From the NCBI GenBank assembly GCA_011391125.1, contig JAABRE010000006.1, forward strand, positions 1 to 64,000: a stretch of DNA of 64,000 nucleotides, read 5' to 3'. Numbering within the stretch: position 1 is the first letter of the stretch; every line of letters begins with the position of its first letter. Source of the stretch: Synechococcales cyanobacterium S06 (GTDB lineage: Bacteria; Cyanobacteriota; Cyanobacteriia; Cyanobacteriales; JAABRE01). Positions 39,350-62,487 of this stretch are shown piece by piece. A program made the translations under genes and the position numbers. Under the pieces are notes generated by a model. It was not told where the DNA came from. It saw only the letters and a list, made by a program, of their open reading frames with translations, and searched no databases.

Positions 39350-40036
39350 ATGAACACAGAAAATAAAACACCAATTAAGATCGATCAATATTTTATGAAT
39401 GCTCGCACAAGATTCGATTTAATTGACTTAATACCCAATGATGTAACGAGAGTTCTGGAAATTGGTTGTGGAATCGGTAAGACTGGTAAAGCTCTTTTTG
39501 AGAAGAAACAATGTAAAATAGTTGGTTTAGATATTAGTGATCAAGTTATTTCAATTGCTAACCAACAAAATTGTTATGAAAAATTAATTGTCGCTGATTT
39601 AGATCAATCATTTATTCCCACAGAAATTGAAAACGAAAAATTTGATTGTATTCTATATCCAGATGTTTTAGAACATTTAAAAGACCCCTGGAAAGTTGTT
39701 AATATTCATACTAATAATCTCTTAAATGCCAACGGATATCTGATTGCTAGCATTCCGAATATTCGACATTTTTCTATTCTTAAAGACTTATTTTTAAAAG
39801 GAAATTGGCAATATCAAAATATGGGAATTTTAGATCGAACTCATCTTCGTTTTTTTACAAAAAAAACCATGGTAAATTTATTTCAGCAATCAGATAACCA
39901 ATTAACAATTAATCTGGTAAAATCCAGAGGTTTATCTGGTCCAAAATATCTCAAAATGCTTAATAAATTAATGTTTAATTATTTAGAAGAATTGTTAACT
40001 ATTCAATATTTAATTGTGGCACAAAAAAAAGAGTAA
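39350..40036 (+). CDS. Class I SAM-dependent methyltransferase
   Basis: A 228-residue methyltransferase with the glycine motif VLEIGCGIGKTGKALF, then IVGLDIS and the post-motif DCILYPDVLEHLKDPW. The C-terminal half (LRFFTKKTMVNLFQQS) resembles small-molecule or sugar O-methyltransferases. Six bases separate it from the next gene, so it is likely part of a short glycan operon with the following GT2-like and PfkB genes. Confidence 0.82.
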   Translation: MNTENKTPIKIDQYFMNARTRFDLIDLIPNDVTRVLEIGCGIGKTGKALFEKKQCKIVGLDISDQVISIANQQNCYEKLIVADLDQSFIPTEIENEKFDCILYPDVLEHLKDPWKVVNIHTNNLLNANGYLIASIPNIRHFSILKDLFLKGNWQYQNMGILDRTHLRFFTKKTMVNLFQQSDNQLTINLVKSRGLSGPKYLKMLNKLMFNYLEELLTIQYLIVAQKKE

Positions 40037-56719: not shown

Positions 56720-56792
56720 TGTTAAAATTTAGCACAGGTTAGCTATTTTTAGCTTACAATATTAACAGATAAATAGGGCGATCGCCCTTTCT
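56720..56792. repeat. Island intergenic repeat, copy A
   Basis: The core is CTATTTTTAGCTTACAATAT, then TAACAGATAAATA and the palindrome AGGGCGATCGCCCT. Here the core spans 56743-56792, and the TTAAAATTTAGCA arm shared with copy B starts near 56722. It lies 3' of the hypothetical gene and 5' of hicB. Confidence 0.9.
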
Positions 56793-56818
56793 AATAAATT
56801 TTATTTAAGGAGGTAATT

Positions 56819-57031
56819 ATGACTAATACCTATACGGCAATTATTCAGGAAGATGGAGATTGGTGGATTGGTTGGATCGAAGAAATTCCGGGGGTAAATT
56901 GTCAAGAAAAAACCAGAGAAGAATTATTGAAAACCTTAAAAATTACCCTAGAAGAAGCTTTAGAATTTAATAGACAAGATGCTATTAATGCAGCAATTGG
57001 TAACTATCAAATTGAAAAAATTGCCGTATGA
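56819..57031 (+). CDS. hicB: HicB-like antitoxin
   Basis: A 70-residue protein with the partially degraded RNase H-like fold of HicB: YTAIIQEDGDWWIGWIEEIPGVNCQEKTREELLKTLKITLEEALEF. It blocks HicA and probably represses the pair. A strong AAGGAGG site lies 5 bases before the ATG. The next gene overlaps by 4 bp (ATGA). Confidence 0.88.
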   Translation: MTNTYTAIIQEDGDWWIGWIEEIPGVNCQEKTREELLKTLKITLEEALEFNRQDAINAAIGNYQIEKIAV

Positions 57032-57216
57032 AACGTAAAGAATTTATCCAATATTTGCGTTCTCAAGGTTGCGAAATAATTAGGGAAGGAAGTAATCATT
57101 CTTGGTGGTGTAATCCAGAATTTAATACTAGAAGTGCTATTCCTCGACATAATGAAATTAAGGATATTTTGGCTAAAAAAATCTGTAAAGACCTTGGAAT
57201 TCCACCAATTAAGTAG
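57028..57216 (+). CDS. hicA: HicA-like mRNA interferase toxin
   Basis: A 62-residue double-stranded-RNA-binding-type toxin: KRKEFIQYLRSQGCEIIREGSNHSWWCNPEF has the conserved GSNHSWW with the catalytic histidine; RSAIPRHNEIKDILAKKICKDLGI follows. It would cleave mRNA when HicB is lost. The pair forms the second module of the island. Confidence 0.9.
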   Translation: MKRKEFIQYLRSQGCEIIREGSNHSWWCNPEFNTRSAIPRHNEIKDILAKKICKDLGIPPIK

Positions 57217-57218
57217 CT

Positions 57219-57300
57219 TAAATTAGTTAAAATTTAGCAAGGGTAGCTATTTTTAGTTTACAATATTAACAGATAAATAAGGGCGATCGCCCTTCCTACC
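57219..57300. repeat. Island intergenic repeat, copy B
   Basis: Starts 2 bp after the hicA stop with the TTAAAATTTAGCA arm and continues through GCTATTTTTAGTTTACAATA to GGGCGATCGCCC. Nearly identical to copy A over about 75 bp. Confidence 0.9.
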
Positions 57301-57332
57301 AAATTTTAAATATATATTATTGTTTAATCAGA

Positions 57333-58178
57333 ATGCTTACACAAGAAATAATTAATTTAGGTGAACCATATTTTCAGAGTGAAAATTGTTTGATTTATAA
57401 TTTAGATTGTTTAGAATCAATGCTAAAAATGCCGTCTGAATGTATTAATTTAACAGTGACAAGTCCACCTTATAATATTGGTAAAGAATATGAAAATATT
57501 TTACCTTTATCGGATTATTTAAAATGGTGTGAAAAATGGATTCAACAAATTTATAAATTAACCGTTAATGATGGTTCTTTTTGGCTAAATTTAGGTTATT
57601 TATCAATTCCAAATTCTGCTAAAGCTATTCCTATTTCTTATTTACTTTGGGATAAAATTCCTTTTTATTTAATTCAAGAAATTGTCTGGAATTATGGAGC
57701 AGGAGTAGCCGCCAAAAACTTTTTTTCTCCCCGCAATGAGAAGTTTCTTTGGTATGTTAAAAATCAGGAAAATTATACTTTTAATTTAGATGAAATTAGG
57801 GATAAAAATGTTAAATATCCTAATCAAAAAAAGAATGGTAAAATTAAAGTCAATCCTTTAGGAAAAAACCCTACTGATGTTTGGCAAATTCCGAAAGTAA
57901 CATCAGGAAAAGATAGATCATCTCAAGAAAGAACCTCTCATCCTGCTCAATTTCCTTTGACAGTAATTGATCGAATTATTAAGGCTTCTTCTCATCCTAA
58001 TGATCTAATTTTAGACCCCTTTTTAGGATCAGGAACTACGGCGATCGCGGCTTTAAATTTAAACAGAAAATTTATCGGTTTTGAAATACGTCAAGATTAC
58101 TGCGATCTTGCAGTTAATAGAATTAATAATTTTTGCCAAAATGAAACTATTAAAAAGTCTCAATTATCTTTATTTTAA
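57333..58178 (+). CDS. DNA N4-cytosine methyltransferase of a ScaI-like system
   Basis: A 281-residue DNA methyltransferase. SPPY at 44-47 (rather than DPPY) indicates cytosine N4 methylation. The cofactor motif is LILDPFLGSGTTAIAALNLNRKFIGFE near the C terminus, preceded by HPAQFPLTVIDRIIKASS. Enzymes of this order belong to the beta class. Its tail overlaps the convergent endonuclease gene by 9 bp, so the two form an RM pair. Confidence 0.85.
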   Translation: MLTQEIINLGEPYFQSENCLIYNLDCLESMLKMPSECINLTVTSPPYNIGKEYENILPLSDYLKWCEKWIQQIYKLTVNDGSFWLNLGYLSIPNSAKAIPISYLLWDKIPFYLIQEIVWNYGAGVAAKNFFSPRNEKFLWYVKNQENYTFNLDEIRDKNVKYPNQKKNGKIKVNPLGKNPTDVWQIPKVTSGKDRSSQERTSHPAQFPLTVIDRIIKASSHPNDLILDPFLGSGTTAIAALNLNRKFIGFEIRQDYCDLAVNRINNFCQNETIKKSQLSLF

Positions 58179-58775
58179 AGGTAATTCTAATAGTTTATAA
58201 CGTTGGACTTCCGGACTTAATCTAGCCTGTTGTCCAGTTTGAGCTTTTTGACCTAACCAGTCAAACTCATCTAACCAACCAAAACGAATTTTATTAATTT
58301 TAGGTAGTTCATTTTCAATTTTTGAGTTAATTTTAGGAAAATTTACTGCTAAATAATAACCTGATTTATTTTTTTTTGTTTGTTGTCCAGTAGTGCTTTT
58401 TTGTGCGTAACTACGATTACCATAAATACTACCAGAACTAGAAGAAGTTTTTAATTCTATTGAAAAATAATCATTAGGAATATAAACAATATCTTTGTCA
58501 TAATCTTTGTCTTCTTTTCGCCATAATTCAGGATATCTCGTCGCAAATTCTAAAGGGATAAGTTCATGTAATAATGTTCCTAAAAATTGAGGACGAGGGA
58601 ATAAATCTATACCTATTTTATACTTTCTACTTGTAATTTCAGAGGTAAATAATTCTGCCCACATTTTATTAACTATTTCCACTATTTCTTCCGTATTAAT
58701 AGGGTGTTGGGCAATTAATTCTTTTGTTTTTGTTTCCCAATTTTCTGTTGATATTCCCTGATATGGTGAAATCAT
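58170..58775 (-). CDS. Type II restriction endonuclease, ScaI-like
   Basis: A 201-residue protein that matches my memory of the ScaI family: SPYQGISTENWETKTKELI, KIGIDLFPRPQFLGTLLHELIPLEFATRYPELWR, IELKTSS, GNRSYAQKSTTGQQTKKNKSGYYLAVNF and GQKAQTGQQARLSPEVQRYKLLEL. The nuclease core is Asp95 and Glu107-x-Lys109. ScaI cuts AGTACT and its methylase makes m4C, consistent with the SPPY partner. The start codon follows the controller stop directly (TAAATG). Confidence 0.78.
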   Translation of the reverse strand: MISPYQGISTENWETKTKELIAQHPINTEEIVEIVNKMWAELFTSEITSRKYKIGIDLFPRPQFLGTLLHELIPLEFATRYPELWRKEDKDYDKDIVYIPNDYFSIELKTSSSSGSIYGNRSYAQKSTTGQQTKKNKSGYYLAVNFPKINSKIENELPKINKIRFGWLDEFDWLGQKAQTGQQARLSPEVQRYKLLELPLK

Positions 58776-58997
58776 TTATTCAATTCCTTTAAATAATTCA
58801 CTTAATGACATTTCCAAAGTGGTAGCAATCTTTAAAAGATTCAAAAAAGCAACGTTTCTTTCACCTCTTTCAATTCCACCAATGTAATTACGATGTAGTC
58901 CACATAATTCGGCAAATTCCTCTTGAGATAACCCTTTTGCCATTCTGAGACTACGCACTTTTACACCTAATTTTTTTAACTCTGAATTTTGTTTCAC
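58776..58997 (-). CDS. RM controller protein, XRE-type helix-turn-helix
   Basis: A 73-residue C-protein: [60 protein letters not shown]. It starts with GTG only 4 bp from an operator-like dyad, and no ribosome site precedes it, so its mRNA may be leaderless. It is translated just ahead of the endonuclease and divergent from the m5C methylase, so it probably controls both sides. Confidence 0.85.
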
Positions 58998-59000
58998 ATC

Positions 59001-59047
59001 CCCACTATATGGGATCAGAGTTCTTTTTCCTACACACTATGAGTGTG
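59001..59047. promoter_or_regulatory. Paired operators of the ScaI-like system
   Basis: Two dyads, CCCACTATATGGG (59001-59013) and CACACTATGAGTGTG (59033-59047), share a CACTAT core and are each followed by GATC. They lie between the controller and the m5C methylase genes, the expected place for C-protein binding. Minus-strand CATATAGT and CATAGT within them could be -10 elements. Confidence 0.6.
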
Positions 59048-59097
59048 ATCCGTGTTTTTGTGTTAAACTAATTTTGTTATTGATTTATTTAAGTAAA

Positions 59098-60183
59098 ATG
59101 CAAAAAAATAATAATTTGTTAAATAAACACCCTTATAAAATCCTTAAAAATCCCCAATCAACTAACTTTAATGTCATGGAATTATTTGCCGGTTGTGGGG
59201 GAATGGCCTTGGGTTTTGAAAATGCAGGTCTTCAAACTAAATTATTAGTAGAAATTGATAAAACCTGTTCTGAAACTTTGGCAAAAAATCGCCCTCATTG
59301 GCATATTATTAATCAGGATGTTACCCAATTAAAGTTTAGTGAATATAATAGTCAAGTTGACATTGTCGCTGGTGGTTTTCCTTGTCAAGCTTTTAGTCAT
59401 GCTGGGGAAAGAAAGGGTTTTTTAGACACTAGAGGAACTTTATTTTTTGAGTTTGCTAGATGTGTAAAGGAAGTAAACCCCAAAATGGTGATCGCCGAAA
59501 ATGTGCGCGGTTTAATTACCCATAAAAATGGCGAAACTTTAGCGATAATTTTAAATACTTTAGATGAATTGGGTTATAATTGTAGTTATAAATTACTTAA
59601 TGCGAGTTATTTAGATGTTCCTCAAAAAAGAGAGCGAATTTTTATTATTGCCACCCAAAAAGACCTTAATATTAAACCAATTTTTCCGACTGAAAATTCC
59701 TATATTATTACTTTAAAAGAAGCCTTAAAAGACTGTCCAAAATCACAGGGAGTTAGCTATAATCAGAGGAAAAAAGAGATTATGGACTTAGTACCCGAAG
59801 GAGGAAATTGGCGTAATTTACCCGAAGAAATCCAAAAAGAATATATGAAAAATAGTTACTATCAAGGAGGAGGAAGAACGGGTTTTGCGAAAAGATTATC
59901 ATACAATGAACCTAGTTTAACCGTTACTTGTTCTCCTGCTCAAACACAAACTGAAAGATGTCATCCCACGGAAACCAGACCTTTAACAGTAAGGGAATAT
60001 GCGAGAATTCAAACATTTCCTGATAGTTGGGAATTTATGGGTTCATTAACTGGCCAATATAAACAAATTGGTAATGCAGTTCCTGTTAATATGGCCTATC
60101 ATATTGGTAAATGTTTAATAGAAATGTTAACAGGAAAATCAGAAAGTTATCGCCAAGAATTAAGGCAATTATCTTTATTTTAA
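59098..60183 (+). CDS. DNA C5-cytosine methyltransferase
   Basis: A 361-residue m5C methylase from the ATG at 59098 (the frame extends to a TTG at 59074). Motif I is MELFAGCGGMALGFENAGL, the catalytic Cys96 is in GGFPCQAFSHAGERKG, ENV is in VIAENVRGL, and the C-terminal motifs are LTVREYARIQTFP and QIGNAVPVNMA. All key residues are intact. Its target is unknown. Bases 59143-59415 are identical to the start of a second methylase at 63728-64000. Confidence 0.92.
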   Translation: MQKNNNLLNKHPYKILKNPQSTNFNVMELFAGCGGMALGFENAGLQTKLLVEIDKTCSETLAKNRPHWHIINQDVTQLKFSEYNSQVDIVAGGFPCQAFSHAGERKGFLDTRGTLFFEFARCVKEVNPKMVIAENVRGLITHKNGETLAIILNTLDELGYNCSYKLLNASYLDVPQKRERIFIIATQKDLNIKPIFPTENSYIITLKEALKDCPKSQGVSYNQRKKEIMDLVPEGGNWRNLPEEIQKEYMKNSYYQGGGRTGFAKRLSYNEPSLTVTCSPAQTQTERCHPTETRPLTVREYARIQTFPDSWEFMGSLTGQYKQIGNAVPVNMAYHIGKCLIEMLTGKSESYRQELRQLSLF

Positions 60184-60251
60184 TCTTGTAATTATACTCT
60201 ATTTTTAGCTTAGAATATTAACAAATAAGTAGGGCGATCGCTTTTTCTATT
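60184..60251. repeat. Island intergenic repeat, copy C
   Basis: Starts right after the m5C methylase stop. The core CTATTTTTAGCTTAGAATAT lies at 60199-60218 and GGGCGATCGC ends at 60241, so the right half of the palindrome is lost. The gltB 3'-end copy begins within 2 bp of the end of this repeat. Confidence 0.85.
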
Positions 60252-60252
60252 T

Positions 60253-60300
60253 GCTTTCGAGAAAAACGCTGCTGACGTAGCCAGAATTGGTGGTAGTTAG
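60253..60300 (+). pseudogene. gltB: Displaced copy of the gltB 3' end
   Basis: Sixteen codons ending in TAG, reading [15 protein letters not shown], identical in protein to the end of intact gltB (56016-56063). Five codons differ, all synonymously (GCG/GCT, GCC/GCT, GAT/GAC, GTC/GTA, AGC/AGT). Homology continues about 28 bp beyond the stop through CGTTGTTGCGCT. There is no upstream gltB sequence, so it is a fragment left by insertion or recombination. Confidence 0.9.
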
Positions 60301-60440
60301 GTTCGTTGTTGCGCTAAAGCGCTAAGGTAGGTTGGCAGTGCAACGGCCTACCAACTAATTATTAACAAAAATTGTTTAATATACAGATTTATTGTAAAAT
60401 ATAACAAGGTTAAATTTAAACAAAAAATAAAGTAAAAATT

Positions 60441-61022
60441 ATGGCAACTAAACTTTTACCTGCAAAAGTACAGAAAGAAATTGCTAGACTCTCTGAAAAA
60501 TCTCAAAATACCATTACCCGTGACGACCTAGAAAAATTAGTTTTACTTGTCTATCCTAGTAAATCTGAACAGAAATCTAACCATAATATTAAACTATCTA
60601 TTTCAGAAAAACCTTTAAAACTTGCGGAAATTAAAGAAGCAATATATAAACGTTTTGATGTTAAAAATACTGACGAATTAAAGAAATCAGGCCAATTTCA
60701 AATGGCCACTGATGGACTGGGAAAATTAAATTTTAATAACAAAGAAACATGGGAAATGTTATATCGTAAATGGATTGATATTCTTCCCGATGAAACCAAT
60801 CAAGAAGGTTATGGTTGTATTAATGGTATTGACATTTTTAAATATTCTCGACCTTGGCAAGTTTTTAATTTAGACGGAAAAACTGCCACTAAAGAAGATG
60901 TCAAAAAAGCTTTTTATCAATTATCTAAAATTTATCATCCTGATAATCAAGAAACAGGCGATCGAAAAATCTTTGAACGTCTTAATAAAATGTATGATAG
61001 TTTAATTGCAGGAATATCTTAA
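60441..61022 (+). CDS. J-domain-containing protein
   Basis: A 193-residue protein whose last 60 residues form a DnaJ-like J domain: RPWQVFNLDGKTATKEDVKKAFYQLSKIYHPDNQETGDRKIFERLNKMYDSLI with HPD at YHPDN, the motif that stimulates Hsp70. The N-terminal part is unfamiliar and lysine-rich. A J domain at the C terminus of a small island protein suggests recruitment of the host Hsp70. A ribosome site is weak. Confidence 0.7.
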   Translation: MATKLLPAKVQKEIARLSEKSQNTITRDDLEKLVLLVYPSKSEQKSNHNIKLSISEKPLKLAEIKEAIYKRFDVKNTDELKKSGQFQMATDGLGKLNFNNKETWEMLYRKWIDILPDETNQEGYGCINGIDIFKYSRPWQVFNLDGKTATKEDVKKAFYQLSKIYHPDNQETGDRKIFERLNKMYDSLIAGIS

Positions 61023-61103
61023 GGCGATCGAAAAATCTTTGATAGTTTTAATCCAATTTAATTTAAAATAGTCTAAATTGCTAATTACGGGAGTGTCTTA
61101 GAA

Positions 61104-62373
61104 ATGACAAATTCAAACATAATTAACAGAGAAGATTTTTTTTATTACTGAAGAATACGTTTTAAAAGGTCTGGAAATAAATAAGGAAGTTTTAGAAATA
61201 ATTATAGCCACCATAGAAAAAGATGAAAGTTTTATCTGGGAAGAAAATGTCCATTTCAGATATGTTCCTAAAAAGAATAAAACTAGACTTTTTGCTAGAC
61301 AAGGTCTCATTGTGATGGGAGAATTTTTTGATACTTCTTTTGATACTTCTGAAGAATTAACAAAATTAAAAACACTACTACAAAAAAAAGACAACGAGAT
61401 AGAATTAATTAAAATTGACCATGAAATTATTGAGAATACTTTAAAGGTTTTAGGTAATAATTCAGATAAAATCTTAGTTAAAGGAAATCGCCATTGGATG
61501 AATTTTAGCGATGTCCGCAAACTCTTTAAAACCACTACACCTCGTTTAAATCAGGCCTTTGAAGATATTGCCCGTTCTGATCTACCATTATTTATAGAAG
61601 AAGATTTTGATGACATAGAAGATCAACGTTATTATTCTTTTTCAGGTTTAGAAAGAATTGGTAATGAATTATCTAATACCTTAACTAGAAAATCTAAAGC
61701 TTTATTTGTTAACAGAGCCAAGAAAAAATCTCCTGACCAAATACAAAAAGTCTATAGTCCTATTCTTCCCTCAGAACAGAAGATTACAAGTGCTATGACA
61801 CAAGCAAGAACACAACAAAATAAGGTCTGTCAAGTTACAGGGGAATCTGATCCAAAATTAGCAGTACATCATCTTTATGATAAAAGTACCTATCCTGAAT
61901 TAGCTATAGATCAAGATAATCTTATCCTGATTAAAGAGCCAATACACCATAATTTTCATGCTTGGAATGAAGGTTTTGATAAACCCTGTACTATAAATGA
62001 TTTTATCTCTTATATCAAAACAATGCAACCTGAATTTTATGAGCATATTGCATTTGAACTTGATAAACGTCAACTAGCTTTACAAACAAAATTAAAATAC
62101 CGTTCTAAATTCAAACCATTAGAACCAGCTTCAACCAAATCCATTGATACAGAATCACCTAAAAATAAGATAACTTCTCAGGAATCAATTAATAGAAATA
62201 TTCTTGGCAAAACTACTTTTGCAAATATCAATAATGAACAAGTAGAAGGTAAAATCTTAGCAATTTCTACTACATACGGTTCAGATCAAAAACCAATTAT
62301 TTCTCTTTGTTTTCAAAAAAAGGAACATAAATATGGAATTTGGTTGCCTTCTTCAGCTTTTATTAATCAATAG
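61104..62373 (+). pseudogene. HNH endonuclease-like protein, frameshifted at a T8 tract
   Basis: A reading of about 423 residues. Translation from ATG 61104 gives MTNSNIINREDFF, then the frame breaks at a run of eight T (61136-61143). With seven T it continues FITEEYVLKGLEINKEV into the intact downstream frame; the first ATG in that frame is 61309 (61312 is the next). An HNH-like centre lies near residue 250: CQVTGES, VHHLYDKS, DNLILI and HHNFHAWNEGF. The C terminus has a small beta-rich domain. It may be phase-variable, inactive or an assembly error. Confidence 0.75.
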
Positions 62374-62374
62374 C

Positions 62375-62487
62375 TGATTAGAGCGGTTTAAAATGCTAAG
62401 AATTGCGATCTATTTTTAGCTTACAATATTAACAGATAAATAGGGCGATCCCGCCGGAATCCGCGCGGAGCAGGTGCGCCCTTTCTA
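62375..62487. repeat. Island intergenic repeat, copy D, with a GC-rich insertion
   Basis: The core runs 62410-62487. Between GGGCGATC (ending 62450) and GCCCTTTCTA (from 62478) lies a 27-bp insertion with about 78% GC, CCGCCGGAATCCGCGCGGAG plus 7 bases, absent from the other copies. It lies just after the HNH gene stop and before xisH. Confidence 0.9.

Follow-up and report, generated by a model that had tools for sequence, protein, structure and literature searches.

A frameshift near the start of an HNH nuclease gene

In the window analysed here (64,000 nucleotides at the beginning of contig JAABRE010000006.1 of Synechococcales cyanobacterium S06; features are on the forward strand unless stated otherwise), an HNH nuclease gene that is otherwise intact and stands second in a J-domain/HNH operon has probably (with a probability of about 0.6) been inactivated recently, by +1 slippage in a run of T close to the start codon. 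The gene is single-copy in its genome. Its frame-0 start remnant (61104..61151) runs from the ATG at 61104-61106 through 15 codons (MTNSNIINREDFFYY), with an N-terminus that matches the homologues, to a TGA stop at 61149-61151. The T8 run (61136..61143) contains one T beyond what the frame common to the homologues allows, and the body of the protein lies in the +1 frame (61141..62373), which begins F-ITEEYVLKGLEINKE... and stays open for 410 codons to 62370, with a stop codon at 62371-62373 and no further lesion. The initial annotation had proposed this frameshift, and it is borne out by relatives that read start and body in one frame.

HNH relatives were found in 46 of the 391 searched genomes of the same order; closer alignment of the genome contigs gave matches in 14 named genomes, and a single-protein scan of the same contig collection gave none. 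The closest relatives are those of genomes G246, G051 (Spirulina sp. CCY15215), G125 (Planktothrix rubescens PCC7821) and G005; relatives at 45-54% identity include Planktothrix, Spirulina and others. These four carry MAREDFFITEED, MVDNREDFFIRED, MALADFFITEED and MTSNNTIDRENFFIKEE, respectively, within one open frame through the whole protein, and their N-termini (in the same order M-AREDFFITEED, M-VDNREDFFIRED, M-ALADFFITEED and M-TSNNTIDRENFFIKEE) are all in frame with the body. The start common to the relatives, M..REDFFI, leads in frame into the same body as in the window copy, which is therefore a full-length gene with one extra T. Homologues with no shared upstream frame, which according to the initial annotation would have spoken against the frameshift, were looked for and did not turn up.

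At the Phe-Phe-Ile site where the window has T8, a comparison of tract length in 29 aligned relatives, as the initial annotation had suggested, found runs of only T2-T6, often interrupted by C or other bases, and no copy out of frame (0/29). The window lineage has TTT TTT at this site, plus one T too many. In a contingency locus, related genes would be expected to share a long homopolymer tract at the same place; with only two to six T in the relatives, the run is therefore not a conserved contingency tract, and the site appears to be a lineage-specific slippage hot spot rather than a conserved switch. In the window lineage, the conserved Phe-Phe-Ile codons may have become an uninterrupted T run by synonymous drift, after which replication slippage would have added one base; translation would then end after 15 codons, yielding little or no full-length nuclease. 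This best explanation builds on the observed shared ancestral frame, extra T, otherwise open body, conserved partner gene and erosion of HNH genes elsewhere.

Decay and alternative explanations

The window copy keeps every one of the 20 HNH-domain columns that do not vary among six relatives, and the break is therefore probably recent. Together with the absence of a second lesion in the 410 codons, this counts against the inactivation reading: either selection acted on the gene until recently, or expression may continue. In relative-rate tests with close outgroups, the window HNH protein shows 41-54 unique changes where its sisters show 15-23 (chi2 6.5-21), an excess of unique amino-acid changes of roughly two to three and a half times, whereas its J-domain partner shows no acceleration. 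The excess is gone with a distant outgroup (chi2 0.2-0.9), and for that reason the test is only moderate evidence of decay. The HNH gene is eroded or absent beside an open J gene in four other genomes as well as in the window: one copy (G190) has a 2-nt deletion at an A run and has lost its 3′ part, another (G057) is reduced to about 19 codons, a third (G174) is a fragment only, and in the fourth genome (G039) no HNH was found. Two more genomes (G337 and G382) retain about 25 HNH codons each, and there the J genes are damaged too. Simple decay, one of the explanations raised by the initial annotation, is accordingly the best fit, since several other genomes contain eroded versions of the same gene and a methyltransferase copy nearby is also broken.

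The initial annotation considered a sequencing error equally possible. Such an error, by which the true tract would be T7 and the gene intact, would fit the otherwise perfect body, the kept catalytic residues and the draft state of the assembly (168 contigs for this 4.8-Mb genome), but it is rather unlikely and not on an equal footing. The coding frame was compared on both sides of A/T runs in 1.04 Mb of the same assembly, a survey of runs other than the window T8, which only 32 nt of gene precede. A/T runs of at least 8 within coding sequence number 60 (53 A8/T8 and seven longer), and none of them breaks a frame, which weakens the error reading. Among about 270 runs of seven there were four apparent shifts, all at gene ends (gene junctions, to judge from the stops and starts close by). 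A candidate for slippage at window position 40023 was rejected, its stop-then-ATG being a normal gene junction. An A8 run within the HNH gene itself, common to the relatives, is read in frame. The signature of homopolymer error is absent from the 1.04 Mb surveyed. The same survey and the same alignment bear on a phase-variable switch, the on/off mechanism that the initial annotation had in mind, in which slippage between T7 and T8 would toggle a costly nuclease. Eight identical bases right after a start codon are typical of contingency loci in both length and position, and a nuclease is a plausible target; the run of eight is nevertheless absent from all 29 relatives checked, the tract being T2-T6 there, and no other coding run broken by slippage was seen in 1 Mb of the organism's own genome, making a switch quite unlikely.

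The intact HNH body would also be expected if slippage of RNA polymerase or ribosome on U8 restored some full-length protein despite the frameshift. There are precedents: one paper describes homopolymer-frameshifted genes of Blochmannia and Buchnera that are thought to be rescued by transcriptional slippage (PMC3017870), and another a chloroplast +1A oligo-A frameshift partly rescued by recoding (PMC8254509). The window gene resembles the frameshift pseudogenes and slippage-tolerant genes in the former in having a single indel in a poly-A/T run with the remaining gene intact; it differs in belonging to a 4.8-Mb cyanobacterial genome with no other broken coding run of 8 or more in 1.04 Mb. The tracts named in the passages concerned are longer (11 A) than U8. 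Slippage climbs steeply with run length, and deletions in homopolymer runs are rarer than insertions (PMC5574713), whereas a base would have to be skipped here. With no conserved slip site among the relatives, such rescue is very unlikely. It is most improbable that the functional product is a shorter protein starting at the first conventional internal start, GTG (61312..61314), which has AAGG 7 nt upstream (61301-61304), or at the ATG at 61315: a start at the GTG would cost about 57 residues of the N-terminal domain, the shorter protein would lack the first DNA-binding-like repeat, and the homologues do not share the ATG. Inactivation by one added T remains the preferred reading.

Domains and fold of the HNH protein

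With residues numbered in the translation from window position 61141, an AlphaFold model of the body (mean pLDDT 84.5, pTM 0.50) consists of two helix-helix-strand-strand-helix repeats, a beta-beta-alpha HNH domain and a small C-terminal barrel. The repeats (residues 1-70, 61141..61350, with pLDDT mostly above 80; residues 106-182, 61456..61686) may be read as winged-helix-like from their secondary structure and sequence pattern. They were not among the fold-search matches listed, but the Tudor-like tail filled that list, so their absence from it is no evidence either way. The HNH nuclease domain (residues 208-280, 61762..61980) has invariant C230, H243, H244, N260 and H273, with strand-strand-helix at 240-275 of the model. 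The "HNH-type" label of the initial annotation is thus sound, H243/H244, N260 and H273 being invariant among 15 homologues, though no Pfam or NCBIfam model matches the protein and its PADLOC matches are marginal HNH hits only. The C-terminal domain (residues 350-410, 62188..62370), present in part of the family only, groups with Tudor/chromo-barrel domains in VIA-align at a Z of about 8 over 53-64 residues, and the HNH part (model residues 208-312) aligns with EcoKMcrA (6ghc) at a weak Z of 6.9 (under 8; rmsd 3.6, 83 residues, 19% identity); both values are in the range that the tool calls middling.

EcoKMcrA (PDB 6ghc) is a modification-dependent HNH restriction enzyme that acts without a partner methylase. 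The window HNH protein resembles it in the weakly aligned HNH region and in having no partner methylase. Pairing of HNH with the C5-methyltransferase was rejected, that gene being near only a few homologues. The window family differs from EcoKMcrA in its other DNA-binding part, the tandem winged-helix-like repeats, and in its constant J-domain neighbour. On similar grounds there is no support for m5C methylation as a selective force against a methyl-dependent HNH: C5-methylase-like matches occur within a few kb of full-length HNH copies in three genomes (G129, G140 and G022). Septu PtuB and the HNH effector of retron Ec78 are also HNH nucleases, with weak Foldseek and PADLOC matches to the window protein. 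The partner in Septu is the ATPase PtuA, whereas that of the window HNH is a small J-domain protein: no PtuA gene was found beside HNH in the pairs examined, all 35 of which have the J-domain neighbour, and each AAA/SMC-type ATPase model matches at most two of the 72 genes that flank J-HNH pairs.

One HNH homologue of G246 (L002 1483-2808) is fused at its C-terminal end to an acyl carrier protein domain (PF00550 3.4e-14, with NCBIfam matches down to 4.7e-33), which is odd in a nuclease. In the Planktothrix rubescens homologue, the same linker (L034 9503-9740) has grown into Pro-Thr tandem repeats and the acyl-carrier part is missing.

The J-domain partner and the paired module

As a lesion the frameshift is nothing unusual; it is the paired module that deserves attention. 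The partner gene (60441..61022), which adjoins HNH in all pairs, encodes a protein with a Pfam DnaJ domain (PF00226 3.2e-9) whose HPD motif is intact (H166-P167-D168, invariant in 14 sequences); the pLDDT of its model is only 73. In known J proteins, the HPD motif activates DnaK. Among the 391 genomes, 50 contain J and 46 contain HNH, and 44 contain both, against a chance expectation of about 6. The two genes are adjacent and co-directional, J first, in each of the 35 pairs examined. In 20 of these pairs HNH begins 2 nt after the J stop codon, which suggests that the genes are translationally coupled; in the window this distance is 81 nt. All full-length HNH genes seen had a J gene with them, whereas J sometimes occurs without HNH, a pattern that fits a nuclease depending on or held by J. 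J and HNH form a conserved unit in which J keeps its HPD motif and HNH its catalytic residues. The unit, in which the gene of a small J-domain protein stands before that of an HNH nuclease, is apparently an undescribed cyanobacterial module; a literature search in a partial library found no paper on such a pair.

As to mechanism, the tandem winged-helix-like repeats would bind DNA and the HNH domain would cut it, and the J protein with DnaK might fold, hold or gate and restrain the DNA-binding nuclease. The nuclease may act in restriction-like or abortive defence, and could be dispensable or costly and easily lost, such that the J gene can persist without it. A possible but speculative reading of the whole is that J-HNH is an undescribed, cyanobacteria-specific and horizontally moving defence or toxin-antitoxin-like module, in which J gates a DNA-binding HNH nuclease via DnaK, carried as a repeat-bounded cassette whose nuclease half is repeatedly mutated off while its J half persists. 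The HNH nuclease family has no Pfam, NCBIfam or clear PADLOC model and always comes with its own J-domain protein; a dedicated co-chaperone would be an unusual control for a restriction or abortive-infection enzyme. Intact pairs are present in Planktothrix rubescens, Arthrospira and Spirulina, and make the idea directly testable.

Distribution and mobility

Matches were found in 30 of 386 genomes sampled across the phylum, all within the window's own class. The HNH tree scatters families, with Arthrospira (f2) and one copy from each of two other families (f8 and f9) as near neighbours, and G246 holds two distant HNH copies; on these grounds the J-HNH pair moves horizontally. In the plasmid collection there was no match to the J-HNH DNA region, the J protein or the HNH protein, and in the phage collection none to the HNH protein; two viral contigs have a weak HNH match only, without J. 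There was no convincing sign that the pair sits in defence islands elsewhere: most of the 72 genes that flank it in other genomes are ordinary, and a few give MADS and PDC matches.

Repeats and neighbouring genes of the island

In the whole genome of 4.8 Mb, the 24-nt core of a direct repeat, TATTTTTAGCTTACAATATTAACA, has seven copies; they share one strand, and none lies outside 56744 to 67332. Copies of the repeat (TATTTTTAGCTTACAATATTAACA..GGGCGATCGCCC) are spread over window 56744-62434 and further along the contig up to position 67332 (L031 744-11332). The copies precede successive genes or operons: a HicBA-like pair, the ScaI restriction-modification genes with a C5 methylase, J-HNH, XisHI and others. 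One copy stands before the J-HNH pair (60200..60223) and another behind it, before xisH (62411..62434), the pair occupying exactly one repeat interval (60200-62411). The integron integrase model TIGR02249 has no match in the genome, which speaks against an integron cassette array; the island resembles an array of cassettes that lacks such an integrase. No Rfam model matches in the island.

The ScaI-type restriction-modification system (57333-58997) looks complete: it has a DNA methylase (PF01555) and a ScaI endonuclease (PF09569), together with a small HTH protein encoded on the opposite strand. Two copies of the C5-methyltransferase gene (window 59074-60183 and contig 63701-64745, the latter L031 7701-8745) are 96% identical over their whole length, rising to about 99% across the initial 300 bases. 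One inserted nucleotide (near 64154) and a premature stop (near 64743) make the second copy a pseudogene. As direct repeats of about 1.1 kb, the two copies stand on either side of J-HNH-XisHI.

The J-HNH pair of Spirulina is also enclosed by repeats in the same orientation; these are 66 nt long, have GCGATCGC ends and differ in sequence from the window island repeat. They are located at L033 6347-6412, 7425-7490 and 9693-9758, and that genome contains 11 copies, several of them clustered.
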